Source: Serratia ficaria
GTDB taxonomy: Bacteria; Pseudomonadota; Gammaproteobacteria; Enterobacterales; Enterobacteriaceae
DNA: 64,000 nt
Direction of reading: 5' to 3'
NCBI RefSeq assembly: GCF_900187015.1
Contig: NZ_LT906479.1
Location: forward strand, 2,480,001 to 2,544,000
This document shows, piece by piece, positions 9,868 through 24,651 of the stretch (within the stretch, counting starts at the first letter, position 1; each line of letters starts with the position of its first letter). The position numbers were made by a program, and so were the translations under genes. Under the pieces are notes generated by a model that saw only the letters and a list, made by a program, of their open reading frames with translations, was not told the origin of the DNA and ran no database searches.

Positions 9868-11040
9868 ATGACGACATCCGGCACTAACCTTGAACATGCT
9901 CGCGCACATAACCGGCGCGTAGTGATAGAGGCTATTCGTTTGCACGGCGAGCTGACCCGCGCCGAAATTGCCCGGCTGACGTCACTGACGCCGCAAACCG
10001 TTTCGAATATCGCGACGGAGCTGGAACGGGCCGGCATTCTCTCCTCGCACCTGCCGCGCCGCGCCGGCGGAAGGGGCCAACCGGCGACGCCGCTGACCCT
10101 GAACCCGAACAGCGCGTACTCCATCGGCATCCATCTGGATCACCAGACGCTGTTGATCATCGTCGTCGATTTATCAGGCAGCGTTCGCTTCCACCGGCTG
10201 ATTATGGTGCAAAAGCCCCAGCCTGCCGCCACCTTGAAACTGATTTGTGATGTACTGCAAGAAATGCGCCAGCAGCCGGATCTGGCGTGGGGCAAAATGC
10301 TCGGCATCGGCGTGGTGATGCCGGGGCCGTTTGGCGTGGAGGGGATTTCCTCGGTGGGGCCGACCACGCTCAACGGCTGGGAGAATACCGACGTGGTGGC
10401 CGATCTGGCGGCGCAGAGCGGGCTGCCGGTAACGCTGGAAAACGACGCTACCGTCGCCGCCATCGGCGAGCGTTTGCACGGGGTGGCCAAGCGGCTCAAT
10501 TCCTTTATTTATTTGTATCTCGGCACCGGGTTGGGGGCGGGGATCTTCACCGACGGGCGAATTTACACCGGCCATGCGCACAATGCTGGTGAGGTCGGCC
10601 ACATGATTGTGCAACCGGGCGGCAAAGACTGCTACTGCGGCAACCGGGGCTGCCTGGAGCGTTACGTTTCGCTGCAGGCGGCCTACGAGAGCTGCGGGCT
10701 GGATCCGATGCGCGCCATGCCGCAGGATCTGCTGGCGCTGCCGCAGGAAAAGCTCGATACCTGGCTGGATCTGGCGGCGCCGCCGCTGCGGCAGGCGATC
10801 AACATCATCGAATGCATGTTCGACGCCGAAGCGGTGATTATCGGCGGCCTGATGCCGGAAAGCCTGGTCGGGCAGCTGATTAAACGGCTGACGCCGCTGC
10901 ACCGTTCGGTGCGCAGCAAATACCTCGACGGCCTGCGGGTGCGGCTGGGCACCACCGGCGCCGATACGGCGGCGCTGGGGGCGGCGGCGTTGCCGCTGTT
11001 CGATGAATTCAACCCGCGCTATGAAGTGTTATTGAAATAA
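9868..11040 (+). CDS. ROK-family transcriptional repressor (NagC/Mlc-like)
   Basis: 390 aa. An N-terminal winged helix-turn-helix (about 15-70; LTRAEIARLTSLTPQTVSNIATELERAGIL) is followed by an actin-like ROK sugar-sensing domain. That domain has DxGxT-like DLSGSVRFH, a sugar-site motif (ENDATVAAIGE) and the zinc-binding ROK signature ending CYCGNRGCLERYVS (about 252-265). It is divergent from the ABC sugar operon and most likely represses it until the sugar or its phosphate binds. Start has a modest AGGCAG Shine-Dalgarno. The inducer is unknown. Confidence 0.9.
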   Translation: MTTSGTNLEHARAHNRRVVIEAIRLHGELTRAEIARLTSLTPQTVSNIATELERAGILSSHLPRRAGGRGQPATPLTLNPNSAYSIGIHLDHQTLLIIVVDLSGSVRFHRLIMVQKPQPAATLKLICDVLQEMRQQPDLAWGKMLGIGVVMPGPFGVEGISSVGPTTLNGWENTDVVADLAAQSGLPVTLENDATVAAIGERLHGVAKRLNSFIYLYLGTGLGAGIFTDGRIYTGHAHNAGEVGHMIVQPGGKDCYCGNRGCLERYVSLQAAYESCGLDPMRAMPQDLLALPQEKLDTWLDLAAPPLRQAINIIECMFDAEAVIIGGLMPESLVGQLIKRLTPLHRSVRSKYLDGLRVRLGTTGADTAALGAAALPLFDEFNPRYEVLLK

Positions 11041-11068: not shown

Positions 11069-11085
11069 TGCCCATTATTGGTGCA
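11069..11085 (+). promoter_or_regulatory. NtrC-like upstream activating site
   Basis: The 17-base TGCCCATTATTGGTGCA has a perfect right half TGGTGCA and a partial left half of the NtrC consensus TGCACY-N5-GGTGCA. It lies about 150 bp before the sigma-54 promoter, a normal enhancer distance. Confidence 0.55.
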
Positions 11086-11106
11086 ACCCGCGGATTAAGC
11101 CAATAT

Positions 11107-11122
11107 AAGCAAACGGTTGCTA
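11107..11122. promoter_or_regulatory. PurR-like box 1
   Basis: AAGCAAACGGTTGCTA fits the PurR pattern ANGCAANCGNTTNCNT at all defined positions except the last. Its centre is 21 bp (two helical turns) from box 2. Confidence 0.6.
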
Positions 11123-11127
11123 TTTCA

Positions 11128-11143
11128 AGGCAACCGTTTGCTT
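11128..11143. promoter_or_regulatory. PurR-like box 2
   Basis: AGGCAACCGTTTGCTT matches every defined position of the PurR pattern ANGCAANCGNTTNCNT. Located between the NtrC-like site and the sigma-54 promoter of a purine-degradation operon, which agrees with a purine-sensing LacI-family regulator. Confidence 0.65.
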
Positions 11144-11233
11144 ATATTTCGCTTATTTCTTTCGCCGGACAATATTTTTCGAATAATTAATATCTCATTG
11201 TTTTAAATAAAAAAATTACAATAAAAAACCAAC

Positions 11234-11248
11234 TGGCACGCCGCTTGC
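11234..11248 (+). promoter_or_regulatory. Sigma-54 (-24/-12) promoter of guaD-xdhABC
   Basis: TGGCACGCCGCTTGC is an exact match to the RpoN consensus TGGCACG-N4-TTGC, with correct GG-to-GC spacing. Transcription should start near 11260. It implies control by nitrogen limitation through NtrC. Confidence 0.85.
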
Positions 11249-11353
11249 TATTCTTGAATCAACACCTGCGATCGTTAAAAGACCGCCATATTTCGTCGGG
11301 CTGAGCTCACTCAGCCGGATGCTGTGCGCTGGTCGCCAGAAAAGGAACGGCAA

Positions 11354-12685
11354 ATGAGCATGCAATTCACCACGGCTATCCGTGGCAATTTTTTCGATAT
11401 CGCCGCCTGCGTGGATGAACCGCAGCGGCTGGACGCGCAGCTGCGGCATATTCCCGACGGCCTGCTGTTGCTGAACGAGGGGACGATCGTCTGGCACGGC
11501 AGCTGGCGGCAGGGCGAGGCGCTGTTGCCGCCGGGTTTTGCGGTGACCGATTATCGCGACAAGCTGATCGTGCCGGGGTTTGTCGACAGCCACATTCATT
11601 ATCCGCAAACCGAAATGATAGGCGCTTATGGCGACCAACTGCTGGGGTGGCTGAAAAACTACACCTTCCCGACGGAAAGCCGCTTTGCCTGCGAAAAACA
11701 CGCCGGTGAAATGAGCGCCTTCTTTCTGCGGCAGCTGTTGAGCAACGGCACCACCACCGCGCTGGTGTTCGGCACCGTGCATCCGCAGTCGGTGGATGCG
11801 CTGTTCAGCCAGGCGGCGGCGCTGAACATGCGCCTGATCGCCGGCAAGGTGATGATGGATCGCCATGCGCCGCCGGCGCTGCTGGAGACCCCGGAACAGA
11901 GCTACCGCCAAACGCGGGCGCTGATCGAACGCTGGCACGGCAGGCAACGCCTGAGCTACGCCATTACGCCGCGCTTCGCGCCGACCAGCACGCCGGCCTT
12001 GCTGGCGCAGGTGCAGCGGCTGCGCGAAGAGTTTCCGGACGCGTATCTGCACACCCACCTGAGCGAGAACCCCGATGAAATCGCCTGGGTGAAAGCACTG
12101 TTTCCGGAAAGCCGCAGCTACCTGGACGTTTACCACCGCTACGGGCTGACCGGCGGCAAAAGCGTGTTCGCCCACTGCCTGCATCTGGAGGAACAGGAGT
12201 GGGACTGCCTGTGCCGAACCCGCTCGTCCATCGCCTTTTGCCCCACCTCCAACCTGTTCCTCGGCAGCGGGCTGTTCAACCTGCAAAAGGCCTGGCAGAA
12301 GCGGGTGAAGCTGGGTATCGGTACCGACGTGGGCGCCGGCACCACCTTCAACATGCTGCAGACGCTGGGCGAGGCCTATAAAGTGGGGCAGCTGCAGCGT
12401 TACAAGCTCTCCGCCTGCGAGGCGTTTTACCACGCTACCCTGGGCGGTGCGCGGGCGCTGGCGCTGGACGACAAGATCGGCAATTTCACCCCCGGTAAAG
12501 AGGCGGATTTCGTGGTGCTGGATCCGGCGGTATCGGCGTTGCAGAAGCTGCGGCATGAAAACAGCCCCGCGCTGGCGGACCAGCTGTTCGTGCTGATGAC
12601 GCTGGGGGACGACCGCAACATTTACCGCACCTACGTCGACGGCAAGGTGGTGTATCAGGCGCCTGCGCGCGAGGAGGCGGCATGA
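11354..12685 (+). CDS. guaD: Guanine deaminase
   Basis: 443 aa (E. coli GuaD 439). Amidohydrolase-fold zinc enzyme converting guanine to xanthine and ammonia in the cytoplasm. Metal ligands lie in VDSHIHYPQ (about 74-82), HTHLSEN (about 231-237), FAHCLHL (about 271-277) and the late Asp in GIGTDVGAG (about 319-327). The start at 11354 has AAGGAA seven bases upstream; an in-frame ATG at 11324 has none. The xdhA start overlaps its stop (ATGA), so product xanthine passes to the next enzyme encoded. Confidence 0.95.
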   Translation: MSMQFTTAIRGNFFDIAACVDEPQRLDAQLRHIPDGLLLLNEGTIVWHGSWRQGEALLPPGFAVTDYRDKLIVPGFVDSHIHYPQTEMIGAYGDQLLGWLKNYTFPTESRFACEKHAGEMSAFFLRQLLSNGTTTALVFGTVHPQSVDALFSQAAALNMRLIAGKVMMDRHAPPALLETPEQSYRQTRALIERWHGRQRLSYAITPRFAPTSTPALLAQVQRLREEFPDAYLHTHLSENPDEIAWVKALFPESRSYLDVYHRYGLTGGKSVFAHCLHLEEQEWDCLCRTRSSIAFCPTSNLFLGSGLFNLQKAWQKRVKLGIGTDVGAGTTFNMLQTLGEAYKVGQLQRYKLSACEAFYHATLGGARALALDDKIGNFTPGKEADFVVLDPAVSALQKLRHENSPALADQLFVLMTLGDDRNIYRTYVDGKVVYQAPAREEAA

Positions 12686-14118
12686 TCCGGTTTCTGCTCA
12701 ATAACAGGTTGAAAAGCGAGGCGGCGCTCGACCCGAACACCACGCTGCTCAACTACCTGCGCCGCGATCTGGGGCGTTGCGGCACCAAAGAAGGCTGCGC
12801 TTCGGGCGACTGCGGCGCCTGCACCGTGGTGTTGGCGGAGCCGCATGACGGCGAGTTGCGCTACCGCAGCGTCAACGCCTGCCTGACGCTGGTCAGCGCG
12901 CTGCACGGCAGGCAGCTGATTACCGTGGAAGATTTGAAACAAAACGGCCGGCTGCACGGCGTGCAGCAGGCGATGGTGGACTGCCACGGCTCGCAGTGCG
13001 GGTTTTGTACGCCGGGCTTCGTAATGTCGATGTTCTGCCTGCAAAAAAATAGCGCCGATTATCGGCGCGAAGCGGCGCAGCAGGCGCTGGCCGGCAACCT
13101 GTGCCGCTGCACCGGCTATCGCCCCATTTTGGCGGCGGCGCAGCAGGCCTGTGAACGGCAAACCCCCGACGGCTTCGACCTGGAACGGCAACGGACGCTG
13201 CGGCAGCTGCAGGCTATCGAGCCCGCCAAATCGCAGGAGGCGGCCGGCAAGCGCTGCCTGATGCCGCAGACCCTCGACGAGCTGGCGGCGCTGTATCGGC
13301 AACACCCCCAGGCCAAACTGCTGGCGGGCGGCACCGATTTGGCGCTGGAAATCACCCAGCGCCATCAGGATCTGCCGCTGTTGATCGCGCTGGGCCAGGT
13401 GGCCGAGCTGAAGCGGACGCAGCGCGCGGACGGCAGGCTGACGATCGGCGCCGGGGCGACGCTGAGCGACCTGTACCCGCTGCTGGAGGGTTACCATCCG
13501 GCCTTTGGCGAGCTGCTGGCGCGCTTCGCCTCGCAGCAGATCCGCAATCAGGGCACGCTGGGCGGCAATATCGCCAACGCTTCGCCGATCGGCGACGGCG
13601 CGCCGCTGCTGCTGGCGCTGGATGCGCAGCTGATGCTGCGCTGCGGCGAACGGCGGCGCGCGCTGCCGCTGCGCCAGTTCTTCCTCGGCTATCGGCAAAC
13701 CGCGCTGCAGCCCGGCGAATTTATCGAAAGCATCTCGCTGCCGGCCGACGCGCCGGCGGACTTCCGCGCCTGGAAAGTGTCCAAACGACGGGAGGATGAC
13801 ATCTCCGCGGTGTGCGGCGCATTCAATCTGACCATCGAACAGGGGGTGGTGCGCGAGGCGCGGGTGGCGTTCGGCGGCATGGCGGCCACGCCGCAGCGCG
13901 CGCTGCGCTGCGAACAACGGCTGGTGGGCCAACCCTGGCGCAGGGCCACGGTGGAGCTGGCGGCGCAGGCCTTGGCGCAGGACTTCACCCCGCTGAGCGA
14001 TTTCCGCGCCAGCAGCGCTTACCGGCTGTTGGTGGCGCAAAACCTGCTGCGCCGTTATTTTATCGCGCTGACGGCGCCGCAAACGGCAATCGAGGTGACC
14101 GCCCATGAGCCACGCTAA
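12682..14118 (+). CDS. xdhA: Xanthine dehydrogenase small subunit (2Fe-2S and FAD)
   Basis: 478 aa. Plant-type 2Fe-2S domain with GCASGDCGACTV (about 39-50), a second 2Fe-2S helical domain with CGFCTPGF and LCRCTGYRPI (about 110-155), then the FAD domain (about 190-360; LLAGGTDLALE, QIRNQGTLGGNIANASPIGD) and CO dehydrogenase flavoprotein C-domain. It carries electrons from the molybdenum subunit to NAD+. It overlaps guaD by 4 bp and xdhB by 14 bp. Confidence 0.95.
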   Translation: MIRFLLNNRLKSEAALDPNTTLLNYLRRDLGRCGTKEGCASGDCGACTVVLAEPHDGELRYRSVNACLTLVSALHGRQLITVEDLKQNGRLHGVQQAMVDCHGSQCGFCTPGFVMSMFCLQKNSADYRREAAQQALAGNLCRCTGYRPILAAAQQACERQTPDGFDLERQRTLRQLQAIEPAKSQEAAGKRCLMPQTLDELAALYRQHPQAKLLAGGTDLALEITQRHQDLPLLIALGQVAELKRTQRADGRLTIGAGATLSDLYPLLEGYHPAFGELLARFASQQIRNQGTLGGNIANASPIGDGAPLLLALDAQLMLRCGERRRALPLRQFFLGYRQTALQPGEFIESISLPADAPADFRAWKVSKRREDDISAVCGAFNLTIEQGVVREARVAFGGMAATPQRALRCEQRLVGQPWRRATVELAAQALAQDFTPLSDFRASSAYRLLVAQNLLRRYFIALTAPQTAIEVTAHEPR

Positions 14119-16480
14119 ACGCATCGAGTACAGCCAGCAACAGCTGGCCGCGCTTTTCCACCAGGGCTTGAGCAGCGGCGCAGGCCGCAGCCGCAAGCAT
14201 GAAAGCGCCGACAAACACGTCAGCGGCGAGGCGCACTACATTGACGATCGGCTGGAGTTCCCCAATCAGCTGCACCTGGCGGCGAAGCTGAGCGAGCGGG
14301 CGCATGCGCGGATCGAAAAACTGGACGTTTCCGCCTGTGCGGCTTTCCCCGGCGTGGTGCGGGTCATTACCTGGCGAGACGTACCGGGCGAGCTGGATAT
14401 CGCGCCGCTGACCCAGGGCGACCCGCTGCTGGCGAAAGATGAGGTGGAGTACCTCGGCCAGGTGATTGCGGTGGTGGCGGCCGAGGATCCGGAAATCGCC
14501 TGGCGCGCCGCACAGGCGATCCGGGTGGAGTATCAGGATCTGCCGGCGCAGCTGGACGTCACCCGGTCATTGCGCGAAGGCTATCTGGTACAGGAAGCGC
14601 ACCGCCATCAGCGCGGCGACGCCGATGCCGCGCTGGCGCAGGCGCAGCACCGCCTGCAGGGCGAGCTGCACGTCGGGGGCCAGGAACACTTTTATCTGGA
14701 AACCCAAATCGCCTCGGTGCTGCCGACCGAGGACGGCGGCATGCTGGTCTATTCATCGACCCAAAACCCGACCGAAATCCAGAAGCTGGTAGCCTCGGTG
14801 CTCAATCTGCCGATGCACCGGGTGACCGTCGACATGCGCCGCATGGGCGGCGGCTTTGGCGGCAAGGAGACCCAGGCGGGCGGCGCGGCCTGCCTGTGTG
14901 CCGTCGTCGCGCATCTTACCGGCCGGCCGGTCAAAATGCGCCTCAACCGCCGCGACGACATGCTGATCACCGGCAAACGTCACCCGTTTTATATTCGCTA
15001 CGACGTCGGTTTCAACGACGAGGGCCTGCTGAACGGGGTGAAAATCGATCTGGCGGGCAACTGCGGTTACTCGCTCGATCTCTCGGGCTCGATCGTCGAC
15101 CGCGCGATGTTCCATGCCGACAACGCCTATTTTCTGCAGGACGTGCTGATCGTCGGCCACCGCTGCAAGACCCACATCGCCTCCAACACCGCCTACCGCG
15201 GCTTCGGCGGGCCGCAGGGCATGATGGCCATCGAAGAAATCATGGATTGCATCGCCCGCTATCTGGCGCGCGATCCGCTGGCGGTGCGTAAAATCAATTA
15301 CTACGGCAAAGACCGGCGCAACGTCACCCATTACCATCAGCCGGTGGAGCAAAACCTGCTGCAGGAGATCACCGCCGAGCTGGAGCAGAGCGCCGACTAT
15401 CGGGCGCGCCGCGCCGCGATCCGCGATTTCAACGCGCAGAACCCGATCCTGAAGAAAGGGCTGGCGCTGACGCCGGTCAAATTCGGCATTTCCTTTACCG
15501 CCAGCTTCCTGAACCAGGCCGGCGCGCTGGTGCTGGTGTATACCGACGGCAGCATCCAGCTCAACCACGGCGGCACCGAAATGGGCCAGGGGCTGAACAC
15601 CAAGGTGGCGCAGATTGTCGCCGCGGTGTTTCAGGTGGATATCGCGCGCATTCAGATCACCGCCACCGACACCGGCAAAGTGCCCAATACCTCGCCGACC
15701 GCCGCCTCGTCCGGCACCGATCTGAACGGCAAGGCGGCGGAAAACGCCGCGCAGATCATCAAACGGCGGTTGGTGGACATGCTGGTCAAACAGCATGCCG
15801 TCAGCGCCGACCAGGTGGCGTTCAGCAATGGCCAGGTGCGGGTCGGCGAGCGCTACTTCAGCTTTGAGCAGGTGGTCGAGCAGGCCTATTTCAATCAGGT
15901 TTCGCTGGCCAGCACCGGTTACTACCGCACGCCGAAAATTTTCTACGATCGCGACCAAGCCAGCGGCCATCCGTTTTACTACTTCGCCTATGGCGCGGCC
16001 TGCGCGGAGGTGGTGATCGACACGCTGACCGGCGAATACCGGCTGCTGCGCGCCGACATCCTGCACGACGTCGGCGATTCGCTGAACCCGGCGATCGACA
16101 TCGGCCAGGTGGAGGGCGGTTTTGTGCAGGGCATGGGGTGGCTGACCAGCGAAGAGCTGGTGTGGGATGAGCAGGGCAAGCTGCTGACCAACGGCCCGGC
16201 CAGCTACAAAATCCCGGCGATTGGCGACGTGCCGGCCGATTTGCGCGTTCGGCTGCTGGAAAACCGCCAAAACCCGGAAGACACGGTATTTCATTCCAAG
16301 GCGGTGGGCGAACCGCCGTTTATGCTGGGCATCTCGGTGTGGTGCGCCATCAAGGACGCGGTGGCCAGCCTGGCGGACTATCGCCGGCAGCCCGCCATCG
16401 ACGCGCCGGCCACGCCGGAACGGGTGCTGTGGGGCGTACAGCAGATGCTGACCGCGGTGCGGGAGAACGGAGATGGATGA
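14105..16480 (+). CDS. xdhB: Xanthine dehydrogenase molybdopterin-binding subunit
   Basis: 791 aa, the usual XdhB length. Domains: aldehyde oxidase/xanthine dehydrogenase a/b hammerhead (about 35-145), then the two molybdopterin-binding domains. Motifs seen include GGQEHFYLE, GGGFGGKE (Moco contact), TAYRGFGGPQ with the substrate-stacking Arg, and GTEMGQGL. The active-site Glu region AVGEPPFMLG lies near the C-terminus. It oxidises hypoxanthine and xanthine to urate. Cytoplasmic, with no signal peptide. Translationally coupled to xdhA and xdhC. Confidence 0.95.
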   Translation: MSHAKRIEYSQQQLAALFHQGLSSGAGRSRKHESADKHVSGEAHYIDDRLEFPNQLHLAAKLSERAHARIEKLDVSACAAFPGVVRVITWRDVPGELDIAPLTQGDPLLAKDEVEYLGQVIAVVAAEDPEIAWRAAQAIRVEYQDLPAQLDVTRSLREGYLVQEAHRHQRGDADAALAQAQHRLQGELHVGGQEHFYLETQIASVLPTEDGGMLVYSSTQNPTEIQKLVASVLNLPMHRVTVDMRRMGGGFGGKETQAGGAACLCAVVAHLTGRPVKMRLNRRDDMLITGKRHPFYIRYDVGFNDEGLLNGVKIDLAGNCGYSLDLSGSIVDRAMFHADNAYFLQDVLIVGHRCKTHIASNTAYRGFGGPQGMMAIEEIMDCIARYLARDPLAVRKINYYGKDRRNVTHYHQPVEQNLLQEITAELEQSADYRARRAAIRDFNAQNPILKKGLALTPVKFGISFTASFLNQAGALVLVYTDGSIQLNHGGTEMGQGLNTKVAQIVAAVFQVDIARIQITATDTGKVPNTSPTAASSGTDLNGKAAENAAQIIKRRLVDMLVKQHAVSADQVAFSNGQVRVGERYFSFEQVVEQAYFNQVSLASTGYYRTPKIFYDRDQASGHPFYYFAYGAACAEVVIDTLTGEYRLLRADILHDVGDSLNPAIDIGQVEGGFVQGMGWLTSEELVWDEQGKLLTNGPASYKIPAIGDVPADLRVRLLENRQNPEDTVFHSKAVGEPPFMLGISVWCAIKDAVASLADYRRQPAIDAPATPERVLWGVQQMLTAVRENGDG

Positions 16481-17261
16481 ATGGATTGAGGCGCTGGCCG
16501 CGCTGCGGCAACGCGGCGAACCCTGCGTGCTGGTCACGCTGGTGGATGAGCTTGGCTCCACGCCGCGCAACCGCGGCACCAAAATGCTGGTGACCGCCGA
16601 AGGGGCGGTCGATACCATCGGCGGCGGCCACCTGGAGTTTCAGGCGCTGGCGATCGCGCGCGACATGCTGCGGCAGGGCGTCAGCCGCCTGCGGCTGGAG
16701 CGTTTCCCGCTGGCGGCCCGGCTCGGCCAGTGCTGCGGCGGCGCCACCCGCGTGCTGTTCGAACCGCTGATCCCGCCGCGCCCGCAGATTGCGCTGTTCG
16801 GCGCCGGCCATGTCGGGCGCGCGCTGGTGAACATTCTCGCCACGCTGCCGTGCCGGGTGCGCTGGATAGACGCCCGCGCGGAGCAATTCCCGGCGCAAAT
16901 TCCCGCCGGGGTCAGCCGCATCGTCAGCGAAGATCCGCTCGAGGAGGTCGACGCCATGCCGGCGGGCGGTTATTTCATCGTGATGACCCACGACCACGCG
17001 CTGGATCTGGCGCTGGCGGAACGCATCCTGCGGCGCGGCGACGCCGGCTATTTCGGCCTGATCGGCTCGTTGACCAAGCGCAAACGCTTCGAATATAAGC
17101 TTGCCCAGCGCGGTCTCGGCGAAACGGCGATCGCCGCCATGCGCTGCCCGCTCGGCCTGCCGGACGTAAAAGGCAAGCTGCCGGCGGAAATCGCGGTGGC
17201 GGTGGCCGGAGAGATTGTGGCCTGCTATGGGCATAAATCAAGGTCTGGCTCGGATGTTTGA
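16473..17261 (+). CDS. xdhC: Xanthine dehydrogenase accessory protein (Moco sulfuration/insertion)
   Basis: 262 aa. N-terminal XdhC/CoxI domain (about 10-75; VTLVDELGSTPRNRGTKML, TIGGGHLE) and C-terminal Rossmann domain (about 103-250; IALFGAGHVGRAL, FGLIGSLTKRKRF). It binds molybdenum cofactor and promotes its sulfuration and insertion into XdhB. It overlaps xdhB by 8 bp. It is the only XdhC homologue in the window, although two more molybdenum hydroxylases are encoded here. Confidence 0.94.
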   Translation: MDEWIEALAALRQRGEPCVLVTLVDELGSTPRNRGTKMLVTAEGAVDTIGGGHLEFQALAIARDMLRQGVSRLRLERFPLAARLGQCCGGATRVLFEPLIPPRPQIALFGAGHVGRALVNILATLPCRVRWIDARAEQFPAQIPAGVSRIVSEDPLEEVDAMPAGGYFIVMTHDHALDLALAERILRRGDAGYFGLIGSLTKRKRFEYKLAQRGLGETAIAAMRCPLGLPDVKGKLPAEIAVAVAGEIVACYGHKSRSGSDV

Positions 17262-21201: not shown

Positions 21202-21831
21202 TCAGCGCCGTTTCAGGTAATCGATCGCCTCCCGTTTGCTCACCACGTCGCCGTACTTGCTGTCGATGTCGAACAGGTTGGCCTCATGCGGGCCGGGGTG
21301 GCGATCGCCGACGCACTCGCGCACCACGATGGTGCGAAAGCCGTGCTGTACCGCATCCACCGCGCTGGCGCGGATGCAGCCGCTGGTGGAGCAGCCGATC
21401 AACAGCAAGGTGTCGATCCCTTGCGCCACCAGCAGCGGCGCCAGCGCGGTGCCGAAAAAGGCGCTGGCGTACCGCTTGCTCAGCACCACTTCATCGGCCA
21501 GCGGCGCCACCGGCGGACAGAACGCCGCCAACGGATTGCCTTCGACCATGTCTTTCATTACCGGCGCTTTTTTGACCCACATGCCGCCATCGGCAAAATG
21601 GCCTGCATGATAGCGGATATTGGTGTGGATCACCGGAATTCCCGCCTGGCGCGCGCAGGCCAGCAGCGCCACGCTTTCGTCGACCGCGCTGACCACGCCG
21701 GGCGCGAACAGCGGCGCGCCCGGCGTGGTGTAGCCCTGCATGAAGTCGATCGCCAGCAGCGCCGGGCGTTGGCCGAAACCGATGCGCCGGCCCCAGACGC
21801 CGCTGTAGTTATCGGCAAGCGATTCGCTCAT
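21202..21831 (-). CDS. nicF: Maleamate amidohydrolase
   Basis: 209 aa, isochorismatase/nicotinamidase-like cysteine hydrolase. The catalytic triad is visible as Asp in LLAIDFMQGY (about 26-35), Lys in VLSKRYASAFFGT (about 116-128) and the nucleophilic Cys in LIGCSTSGCIRAS (about 142-154). It hydrolyses maleamate to maleate and ammonia. This is the step that frees the ring nitrogen. Strong Shine-Dalgarno GGAGGCACC. It sits 9 bp after nicE. Confidence 0.92.
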   Translation of the reverse strand: MSESLADNYSGVWGRRIGFGQRPALLAIDFMQGYTTPGAPLFAPGVVSAVDESVALLACARQAGIPVIHTNIRYHAGHFADGGMWVKKAPVMKDMVEGNPLAAFCPPVAPLADEVVLSKRYASAFFGTALAPLLVAQGIDTLLLIGCSTSGCIRASAVDAVQHGFRTIVVRECVGDRHPGPHEANLFDIDSKYGDVVSKREAIDYLKRR

Positions 21832-21840
21832 GGTGCCTCC

Positions 21841-22593
21841 TCAGTAAGCGCCGGAAAGCAGGGCGCCCGCGCCTGGCACGATCGGCTCCAGCTCCAGCGC
21901 GGTCAGCATTGCGTAGGTGGTGGCGATGGCGGCGGTGAGCACCGGTTTGCCGGTTTGCGCCTCAACCGCCGGCACCGCCGGCAGCGAAGGCATCTGCACG
22001 CAGGCCGAAAGCACGATGGCGTCGACGTCGCTCAGGTCCATCTCCGCGACGATGCCCGGCAGCCTGGCCGGATCGTGGCGGCCGACCTCGAGGTTGTCGG
22101 CGATCTCCAGCGCGCGCCACACCTTGACCTCGATGCCTTCGTGCTGGATGTAGTCCACCACCATCTGGGTGAGCGGCTTCATATAGGGCGCCACCAGCGC
22201 GATGCGTTTGGCGCCCAGCACCTTCAGGCCGTTGACCAACGCGCCGGCGCTGCTGACAACCGGCGCGGCGGCGTTGTTGTTTTGCGTCACCTGCGCCAGC
22301 CTGGCCTGCGATTCGCGATGGTAGCCCAGGCCCATCGACATGATGGCCACCAGGCAGGCGTAACCGAGCACGTCGACCCGGGCGTCGGAAAGCTCCAGCG
22401 CGCAGCGATCGGATTCGGCGTCCATCGCCGCCAGTTCCTCTTTGTTGACGTGCTTCATGCGCATGCGGCTGGAGTGGAAGGTGAAACGTTCCGGGCGGAT
22501 CAGCTGGCGCGCGGTCAGCATCGCCGGGATCTCGGTTTCCATGGTGGTGTTGGAGCTGGGCACTATCTGGCCGATACGGTAGTTGTTGCTCAT
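21841..22593 (-). CDS. nicE: Maleate cis-trans isomerase
   Basis: 250 aa from the ATG at 22593, equal to P. putida NicE. The ATG at 22602 touches its Shine-Dalgarno and is unlikely. Asp/Glu racemase superfamily: N-terminal IGQIVPSSNTTMETEIP holds the substrate-binding loop, and the two catalytic cysteines are in LGYACLVAIMS (about residue 80) and VLSACVQMPSL (about 198). It converts maleate to fumarate, which enters the TCA cycle. The nicD stop is 16 bp upstream of this start. Confidence 0.93.
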   Translation of the reverse strand: MSNNYRIGQIVPSSNTTMETEIPAMLTARQLIRPERFTFHSSRMRMKHVNKEELAAMDAESDRCALELSDARVDVLGYACLVAIMSMGLGYHRESQARLAQVTQNNNAAAPVVSSAGALVNGLKVLGAKRIALVAPYMKPLTQMVVDYIQHEGIEVKVWRALEIADNLEVGRHDPARLPGIVAEMDLSDVDAIVLSACVQMPSLPAVPAVEAQTGKPVLTAAIATTYAMLTALELEPIVPGAGALLSGAY

Positions 22594-22609
22594 GATTGGC
22601 ATTCCTCAA

Positions 22610-24651
<2,042 letters not shown>

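Follow-up and report, generated by a model that had tools for sequence, protein, structure and literature searches.

The guaD-xdhABC locus of Serratia ficaria

The analysed stretch of DNA (the window) is 64 kb long and corresponds to positions 2,480,001-2,544,000 of the 5.21-Mb single-contig genome of Serratia ficaria. On its forward strand it carries guaD (guanine deaminase, 11354..12685; TIGR02967, 589 bits against a cut-off of 375.4), followed by the genes for the xanthine dehydrogenase small subunit, xdhA (12682..14118; TIGR02963, 652.9 bits, cut-off 467), the molybdopterin subunit, xdhB (14105..16480; TIGR02965, 1267.6 bits, cut-off 849.5) and the accessory protein, xdhC (16473..17261; TIGR02964, 307.7 bits, cut-off 161.6). 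All four genes exceed the curated NCBIfam cut-offs, and each xdh gene overlaps the gene before it. The guaD start was set, by our choice, at the ATG at 11354. The closest named guaD records are from Serratia, and in the 26 other genus genomes that gave a match guaD is 84-95% identical to this one. The upstream neighbour, also on the forward strand, is a ROK-family regulator gene (9868..11040; PF00480), which lies outside the conserved module described below.

Before guaD, read 5' to 3', stand an NtrC-like site, twin LacI-type boxes and a sigma-54 promoter. This arrangement had been observed in an earlier note made from the sequence alone; the observation was confirmed here and then extended to relatives. 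The -24/-12 element TGGCACGCCGCTTGCT (11234..11249, forward strand) matches TGGCACGNNNNTTGCW exactly, as the note had claimed, and is the only exact sigma-54 match within the window. When one mismatch is allowed, 3 matches are found in the window; shuffled sequences gave a mean of 1.63 and at least 3 matches in 25 out of 100 cases, so the match number itself is not unusual.

The NtrC-like enhancer site TGCCCATTATTGGTGCA is a forward-strand 17-mer (11069..11085) with two mismatches to TGCACCNNNNNGGTGCA. It had been placed 150 bp upstream of the promoter: the site stood, while that figure approximates the gap between the two elements, the start-to-start distance to the -24 element being 165 bp. 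NtrC-activated sigma-54 promoters usually have two upstream NtrC sites. Only a single NtrC-like match (up to 3 mismatches) is present at this locus; pairs spaced 18-34 bp were seen in 36 of 84 loci. The genome encodes NtrC (TIGR01818, 813.7 bits, cut-off 558.6), and rpoN is expected in these bacteria.

Elsewhere in the window, hpxO (FAD urate hydroxylase, NF033623; 36725-37928, reverse strand) may represent a second nitrogen-controlled purine step: a sigma-54-like element with one mismatch lies at 37928-37913, accompanied by two NtrC-like matches with 3 mismatches each. No PurR-type core with up to 2 mismatches was found in the 351 bp scanned. On the same strand, genes for isochorismatase-domain, Amdase-family, alpha/beta-hydrolase and FAD-monooxygenase proteins follow one another in a row (21202-24648), presumably a nicotinate-breakdown cluster.

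Match and rarity of the PurR-type boxes

The PurR operator consensus is a 16-bp palindrome of the form ANGCAANCGNTTNCNT. Box 1, AAGCAAACGGTTGCTA (11107..11122, forward strand; core GCAANCGNTTGC), has one mismatch to it and box 2, AGGCAACCGTTTGCTT (11128..11143, forward strand), has none; the box centres are 21 bp apart. The twin PurR-pattern 16-mers reported earlier were thus found with the reported spacing.

In the 5.2-Mb genome the full consensus is found 9 times, versus 0 for the reversed control and a chance number of about 2.5 by a plain uniform-base estimate. One of these is guaD box 2. The eight others are at purEK, pyrD, purB, tsx, cvpA-purF, purL, an amino-acid-permease-like gene and a nucleosidase-like gene, all named by reading the translations; the last of these matches TIGR01704 with 75.9 bits (cut-off 73.8), in a match confined to residues 33-122. 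The looser core GCAANCGNTTGC is found at 10 places, versus 13 for its control, and was rejected as proof when taken alone. Since it is not rarer than its control, the significance of the boxes rests on the full consensus, their pairing and their conservation.

A position weight matrix (PWM) was built from 11 other PurR-type sites (guaD excluded), which score 18.0-22.5. Box 2 scores 20.2, inside this range, and box 1 scores 16.8, below it; as high a score is reached by 3 and 38, respectively, of 643,506 background positions, a background that itself includes other guaD boxes. The boxes of other guaD loci score 10.2-21.5. Across all boxes GCAA..CG..TTGC is nearly invariant and the inner positions vary.

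Candidate binding proteins

Judged by these sequences, PurR is the best candidate binder of the guaD boxes. The genome encodes it (L150; NF007979, 702.9 bits, cut-off 501), and among the 28 LacI-type helix-turn-helix (HTH) proteins of the genome the recognition helix VSHVIN is found only in PurR and RbsR. RbsR was rejected: its operator core CGAAACGTTTCG, present twice at the genome's own rbs-like operon, differs from the guaD GCAANCGNTTGC. CytR is a less likely candidate, as its half-sites vary in spacing whereas the central CG and the spacing are kept in the guaD boxes.

It is improbable that the boxes are bound by another LacI-family protein, such as a dedicated repressor released by a purine. 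The available text of PMC4052901 does list HpxR, a LacI-family regulator, among the regulators of nucleoside use, and of the 28 LacI-type HTH proteins only PurR and RbsR had their operators compared. In addition, twin cores adjoin local LacI-family genes in four genomes of other families. Against such a protein, no PurR-like gene (E ≤1e-5) was found in the 1.5-3 kb flanks of 107 guaD loci, only PurR and RbsR share the VSHVIN helix while the RbsR operator is CGAAACGTTTCG, and both boxes agree with the PWM built on the 11 other PurR-type sites. In the K. pneumoniae locus L097, which lacks the boxes, one distant LacI-like ORF was seen by eye about 3 kb downstream.

Across the order, the exact twin core was found in 14 of 394 genomes, 8 times before guaD. 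Four of the six other cases (L120, L121, L122, L131) are those of other families and lie, in our reading, between a TonB-type receptor gene and a LacI-family gene; twin cores are therefore not PurR-specific. The remaining two are one before a purL-like gene (L132, in another family) and one inside an ORF adjoining a pyrD-like gene. The purL-like case suggests that PurR itself can use twin boxes. PurR-type cores were also noted near a xanthine-permease-family gene in L119 (TIGR03173, 414.3 bits, cut-off 414.15) and just upstream of an amino-acid-permease-like ORF in L112.

Conservation of the arrangement

At the threshold used, guaD was found in 27 of 30 genus genomes. At 26 of these 27 loci one or two boxes occur together with a sigma-54 element (at most 2 mismatches) and an NtrC-like match (at most 3); 13 of the 26 have twin boxes and 13 a single box, and L029 has none of the three. 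Box 1 is retained in twin-box and single-box relatives alike. The layout is thus kept in relatives, the check that the earlier note had proposed for its reading. Some loci recur in the numbering: L030-L034 partly duplicate genomes among L004-L029, and L130 is the Serratia ficaria locus again.

Among 107 guaD upstream regions, the layout extends beyond the genus to Erwinia, Pantoea, Buttiauxella, Mangrovibacter, one Citrobacter sp. and others. It was not found in the Klebsiella, Escherichia, Aeromonas, Photobacterium and Acinetobacter loci of this set, nor in several Enterobacter and two other Citrobacter loci. Boxes and sigma-54 element occur together at 55 of the 107 loci, 37 with twin boxes (three of them, L056, L067 and L093, with core mismatches) and 18 with a single box. 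At each of the 55, the 140 bp before box 1 contain an NtrC-like match (up to 3 mismatches). In the 18 single-box loci no second core (up to 2 mismatches, within 30 bp) was found except in L076 and L082. Perfect inverted repeats there do not exceed 8 bp.

In the family, the exact twin core was found in 30 of 392 genomes, at one place in each, versus 0 for the reversed control. All but one (L197) of these 30 lie before guaD. A sigma-54 element (up to 2 mismatches) is present in 28 of the 29 exact-twin guaD loci, and so is an NtrC-like match (reversed NtrC control: 0/29); L183 lacks both.

Two other elements were seen upstream of guaD. In Ewingella, Rouxiella and Serratia sp. M24T3 (L035, L040, L042) there are no PurR-type boxes, and a palindrome YTGACCRATYGGTCAA, presumably RutR-like, adjoins the -24 element directly upstream of the sigma-54 element. 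In L040 a gene read by us as TetR-type lies between guaD and xdhA. A regulator swap is possible at these three loci. The sequence GTTGCGCA stands 62-67 bp upstream of the -24 element, at a near-constant promoter distance, in 11 loci (L041, L048, L055, L056, L062, L067, L068, L077, L079, L088, L092), and L068, L077 and L079 have a second copy at 78 bp.

The inverted repeat and the ROK gene

Both boxes are held in a perfect inverted repeat (11102..11148, forward strand) with arms at 11102-11120 and 11130-11148. The arms are 19 nt each and 100% complementary, as had been noticed earlier, with a 9-nt spacer. Absent from the earlier note is the RNA hairpin that this repeat would form (-29.2 kcal/mol, z -6.7). 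Its stem is very stable and its tail TCGCTTATTT is an interrupted T run; it was called terminator-like, with 3 such matches in the region against 2.4 in shuffles.

The repeat could in principle be nothing other than the intrinsic terminator of the ROK gene, with an incidental likeness to PurR operators. The strength of the terminator-like hairpin fits this, and so does the distribution of ROK genes in the genus: one lies within 1.5 kb upstream in 13 of 27 loci, and within that distance a co-directional ROK gene is present at 13/13 twin-box loci and 0/13 single-box loci. Full complementarity of the cores is also commoner among the distinct twin sequences of L001-L034 (11/13) than elsewhere (8/21). 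Even outside L001-L034 inner positions pair in 21/42 cases versus 0.35 expected when boxes of different loci are paired, a modest excess.

The boxes, however, are kept without the hairpin. The 18 single-box loci retain a box and have no two-box hairpin, the genus loci among the single-box ones keep it 38-40 bp from the NtrC-like start, and outside L001-L034 the cores are fully complementary in 8 of 21 twin sequences. In most Erwinia, Pantoea and Buttiauxella loci examined the neighbouring gene upstream runs in the opposite direction, which makes a terminator unnecessary there, yet the boxes persist. Furthermore, the inner box positions vary around the nearly invariant GCAA..CG..TTGC, and the boxes are phased to the NtrC sites (see below). 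A terminator as the sole meaning of the repeat is therefore very improbable and was rejected as the main function; in this genus the hairpin may have a second use as terminator of the upstream ROK gene. The ROK regulator as the box binder is not supported either, because the box persists in relatives without a ROK gene.

Helical register of NtrC-like sites and boxes

In twin-box loci the distance from the NtrC-like start to the box-1 start is mostly 39-40, 50-51, 61-62, 70-74, 82-83, 91-95 or 101-104 bp, that is, it changes in steps of about one DNA turn. Over 52 distances the phase concentration R is 0.92, with a best period of 10.6 bp. Related loci were then merged (83 loci into 26 clusters at 85% guaD identity), with the nearest NtrC-like match and a period of 10.5 bp. 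This set omits NtrC matches beyond 110 bp, the 27-bp matches with 3 mismatches and L183, and includes single-box loci. Across the 26 clusters R is 0.82 from NtrC site to box 1, a value reached by none of 20,000 random sets; the sets have uniform distances, and kinship enters through the clustering only, without a phylogenetic model. The box-to-promoter distance has an R of 0.32 (1,251 of 20,000 random sets as high) and the NtrC-to-promoter distance is weakly phased (R 0.40; 290 of 20,000). Loci gathered after the register idea arose (L181 onward) have an R of 0.81 over 35 distances.

A register is thus kept between the NtrC sites and the PurR-type boxes, and none is clear between the boxes and the promoter. 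In L093 the NtrC-box spacing is kept and the boxes are about 48 bp nearer to the promoter, and in L186 and L187, where 147 bp separate box 1 from the promoter, an NtrC-like match is found at 51 bp. Some loci depart from the register. Single-box L076 and L082 are displaced by about half a turn, and in single-box L005/L030 the matches, at 38 and 59 bp, deviate slightly. Seven genus loci (L012, L019, L021, L023, L024, L025, L028) have an extra 3-mismatch NtrC match at 27 bp, and L187 has distant ones at 132 and 138 bp, all off phase. In Serratia and its relatives, NtrC-like sites and probable PurR sites usually stand at a fixed rotational angle to one another.

In most twin loci about 0.6 turn separates the centre of box 1 from those of the NtrC sites (2.5 bp subtracted from the start distances), an offset that by itself does not tell the inside from the outside of a loop. 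In the 17 loci with an NtrC pair 30-34 bp apart the box is near integer turns from the middle of the pair, and in the 19 loci with a pair 18-23 bp apart it is mostly near half-integer turns. In our reading the box is on one face in both groups, given its similar angle to each NtrC site. The phase definition in the available text of PMC4740811, which takes the middle of the NtrC pair as the reference point, splits them.

Possible role of PurR at the promoter

Computation shows that the sites exist and are conserved, that the boxes have a PurR-type motif and are phased to the NtrC sites at 10.5 bp, and that PurR and NtrC genes are present. The leading reading of them, a plausible one, is loop blocking by a protein between enhancer and promoter. 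Phosphorylated NtrC, bound upstream, would drive the guaD-xdhABC sigma-54 promoter. PurR loaded with hypoxanthine or guanine would bind the twin boxes inside the enhancer-promoter loop and, held at a fixed rotational angle to NtrC, would hinder loop formation, acting as a purine-sensing brake on a nitrogen-hunger promoter. That NtrC and PurR occupy their sites, act through the loop and do so with a negative PurR effect is inferred. With both kinds of site at one promoter, the cell is probably able to balance its need for nitrogen against the purine supply. The account as a whole, an NtrC-driven guaD promoter with a PurR brake inside the NtrC-promoter loop, is given nearly even chances.

The closest experimental guide is the set of synthetic NtrC/sigma-54 enhancers in PMC4740811, cited here from its available text. 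There, LacI, TetR or TraR in the loop represses, TetR and TraR repression depends on the phase to the activator, and in-phase tandem TraR sites repress more strongly. The simulated effect of a protein at a fixed position does not oscillate with loop length, and indels of about one turn are expected to be tolerated. The guaD loci resemble these enhancers (PMC4740811, same text): the boxes keep a register to the activator and no clear one to the promoter, the 17 loci with a 30-34 bp NtrC pair are at the quenching phase, and twin boxes lie 19-22 bp apart. LacI in the loop lowered expression to about 50-70% of that without bound protein at the tested positions of that study. PurR is otherwise known mainly as a repressor, and at E. 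coli carAB it can act from -128.5 (accessible part of PMC6245113).

Several points stand against a brake. PurR needs a purine ligand and would therefore brake when substrate is plentiful. With guanine or hypoxanthine as its ligands, PurR would be an odd choice for simply repressing purine breakdown, and it may instead activate. By the literal definition in the available text of PMC4740811, the 19 loci with an 18-23 bp pair are out of phase, and further off-phase cases are L076, L082, L187 and the seven genus loci with a 27-bp match. The phase dependence of LacI was barely detectable in that study, and in its simulation a bending-dominated protein raises looping at in-phase positions (PMC4740811, in part), while PurR bends DNA strongly. 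At E. coli carAB, according to the accessible part of PMC6245113, PurR bends the DNA by about 97 degrees, needs PepA and cannot repress P1 alone. Given the ligand logic and the LacI and bending results of PMC4740811, the brake is favoured only tentatively.

In the rival reading holo-PurR bends the DNA or aids NtrC, and full expression of the operon requires both a shortage of nitrogen and the presence of purine. This reading is rather doubtful, and so is the guaD-xdhABC AND gate that it would imply, with holo-PurR co-activating together with NtrC at a fixed rotational angle. ArgR at astC reportedly superinduces, which would be a parallel. PurR also binds in the presence of guanine or hypoxanthine, the very condition that makes a breakdown operon worth expressing, and a fixed angle to NtrC fits cooperation as well. 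The bend of about 97 degrees in the accessible part of PMC6245113 and the simulation in that of PMC4740811, where a bending-dominated protein raises looping at in-phase positions, point the same way. At 47 of 55 loci, among them the Serratia ficaria locus, no exact IHF-like site lies between the promoter-proximal box and the promoter, and a bend from another source could be of help there. The other 8 of the 55 (L017, L038, L041, L044, L045, L048, L058, L059) combine box(es) with such a site, however, against 0.64 expected (with up to one mismatch, 21/55 against 12.0), and PurR is not needed as a bender there; that PurR simply replaces IHF is weakened by these loci. A bend that brings NtrC to the promoter should also be phased to both, yet the box-to-promoter R is 0.32. 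Finally, PurR is known mainly as a repressor, normally of purine synthesis genes.

The interpretation offered in the earlier note held up in part, for the elements, the boxes between them and the conservation, with PurR and NtrC genes present in the genome. Its statement that no such case had been described did not, in view of the regulators reported between enhancer and promoter at nac (Nac) and astC (ArgR) and of the synthetic looping repression in the available text of PMC4740811. The helical register is new here, while the parts are of known kinds. PurR-type boxes in the NtrC register at a purine-breakdown sigma-54 promoter were not found in the open-licence literature searched (supplements excepted), and an earlier listing, for example in a regulon database, is possible. 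The accessible portion of PMC10673613, on PurR in Yersinia pestis, makes no mention of xanthine, guaD or xdh, and those of PMC8743547 and PMC3844500, on sigma-54 targets, make none of PurR.

If the brake reading is true, a purine-synthesis repressor sits inside the loop of a nitrogen-control promoter and two global signals are joined at one operon. If instead PurR is a co-activator, this would be a sigma-54 promoter activated by PurR, with a natural regulator kept in helical register with the enhancer across genera. The sign of the PurR effect decides between these two clear models. The operon also offers a natural system for direct tests of looping models derived from synthetic enhancers.

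Comparison with known systems

In the hpx purine-use system of Klebsiella, purine breakdown is under nitrogen control. The K. pneumoniae guaD locus (L097) resembles the one described here in having a one-mismatch sigma-54-like element. It differs in having no exact core upstream of guaD; a 1-mismatch core is found at -306, inside the upstream ORF.

Two natural NtrC/sigma-54 promoters are close in logic. At the E. coli astC promoter, ArgR is said to superinduce, in work by Kiupakis and Reitzer from 2002. As in the proposed guaD case, a biosynthetic repressor with an end-product ligand acts on the NtrC/sigma-54 promoter of the matching breakdown operon. The protein family, the pathway and the site layout are different, and ArgR superinduces, whereas the sign at guaD is inferred. 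At the Klebsiella nac promoter, Nac reportedly hinders activation from between the NtrC enhancer and the sigma-54 promoter (Feng and coworkers, 1995), the same position as that of the guaD boxes. Nac differs in being LysR-type and autoregulatory, and is not known to have a purine ligand.

For PurR itself, the nearest case is carAB P1 (accessible part of PMC6245113), where PurR with guanine or hypoxanthine acts at a far-upstream box and bends the DNA strongly. That promoter has a single box, is of another kind, serves another pathway and needs PepA. The synthetic enhancers of PMC4740811 are engineered, and the natural example in the available text concerns qrr loop lengths and sequences, with no phased regulator. 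They nevertheless share with the proposed guaD brake a protein that represses from within the loop, and tandem in-phase sites that do so more strongly.
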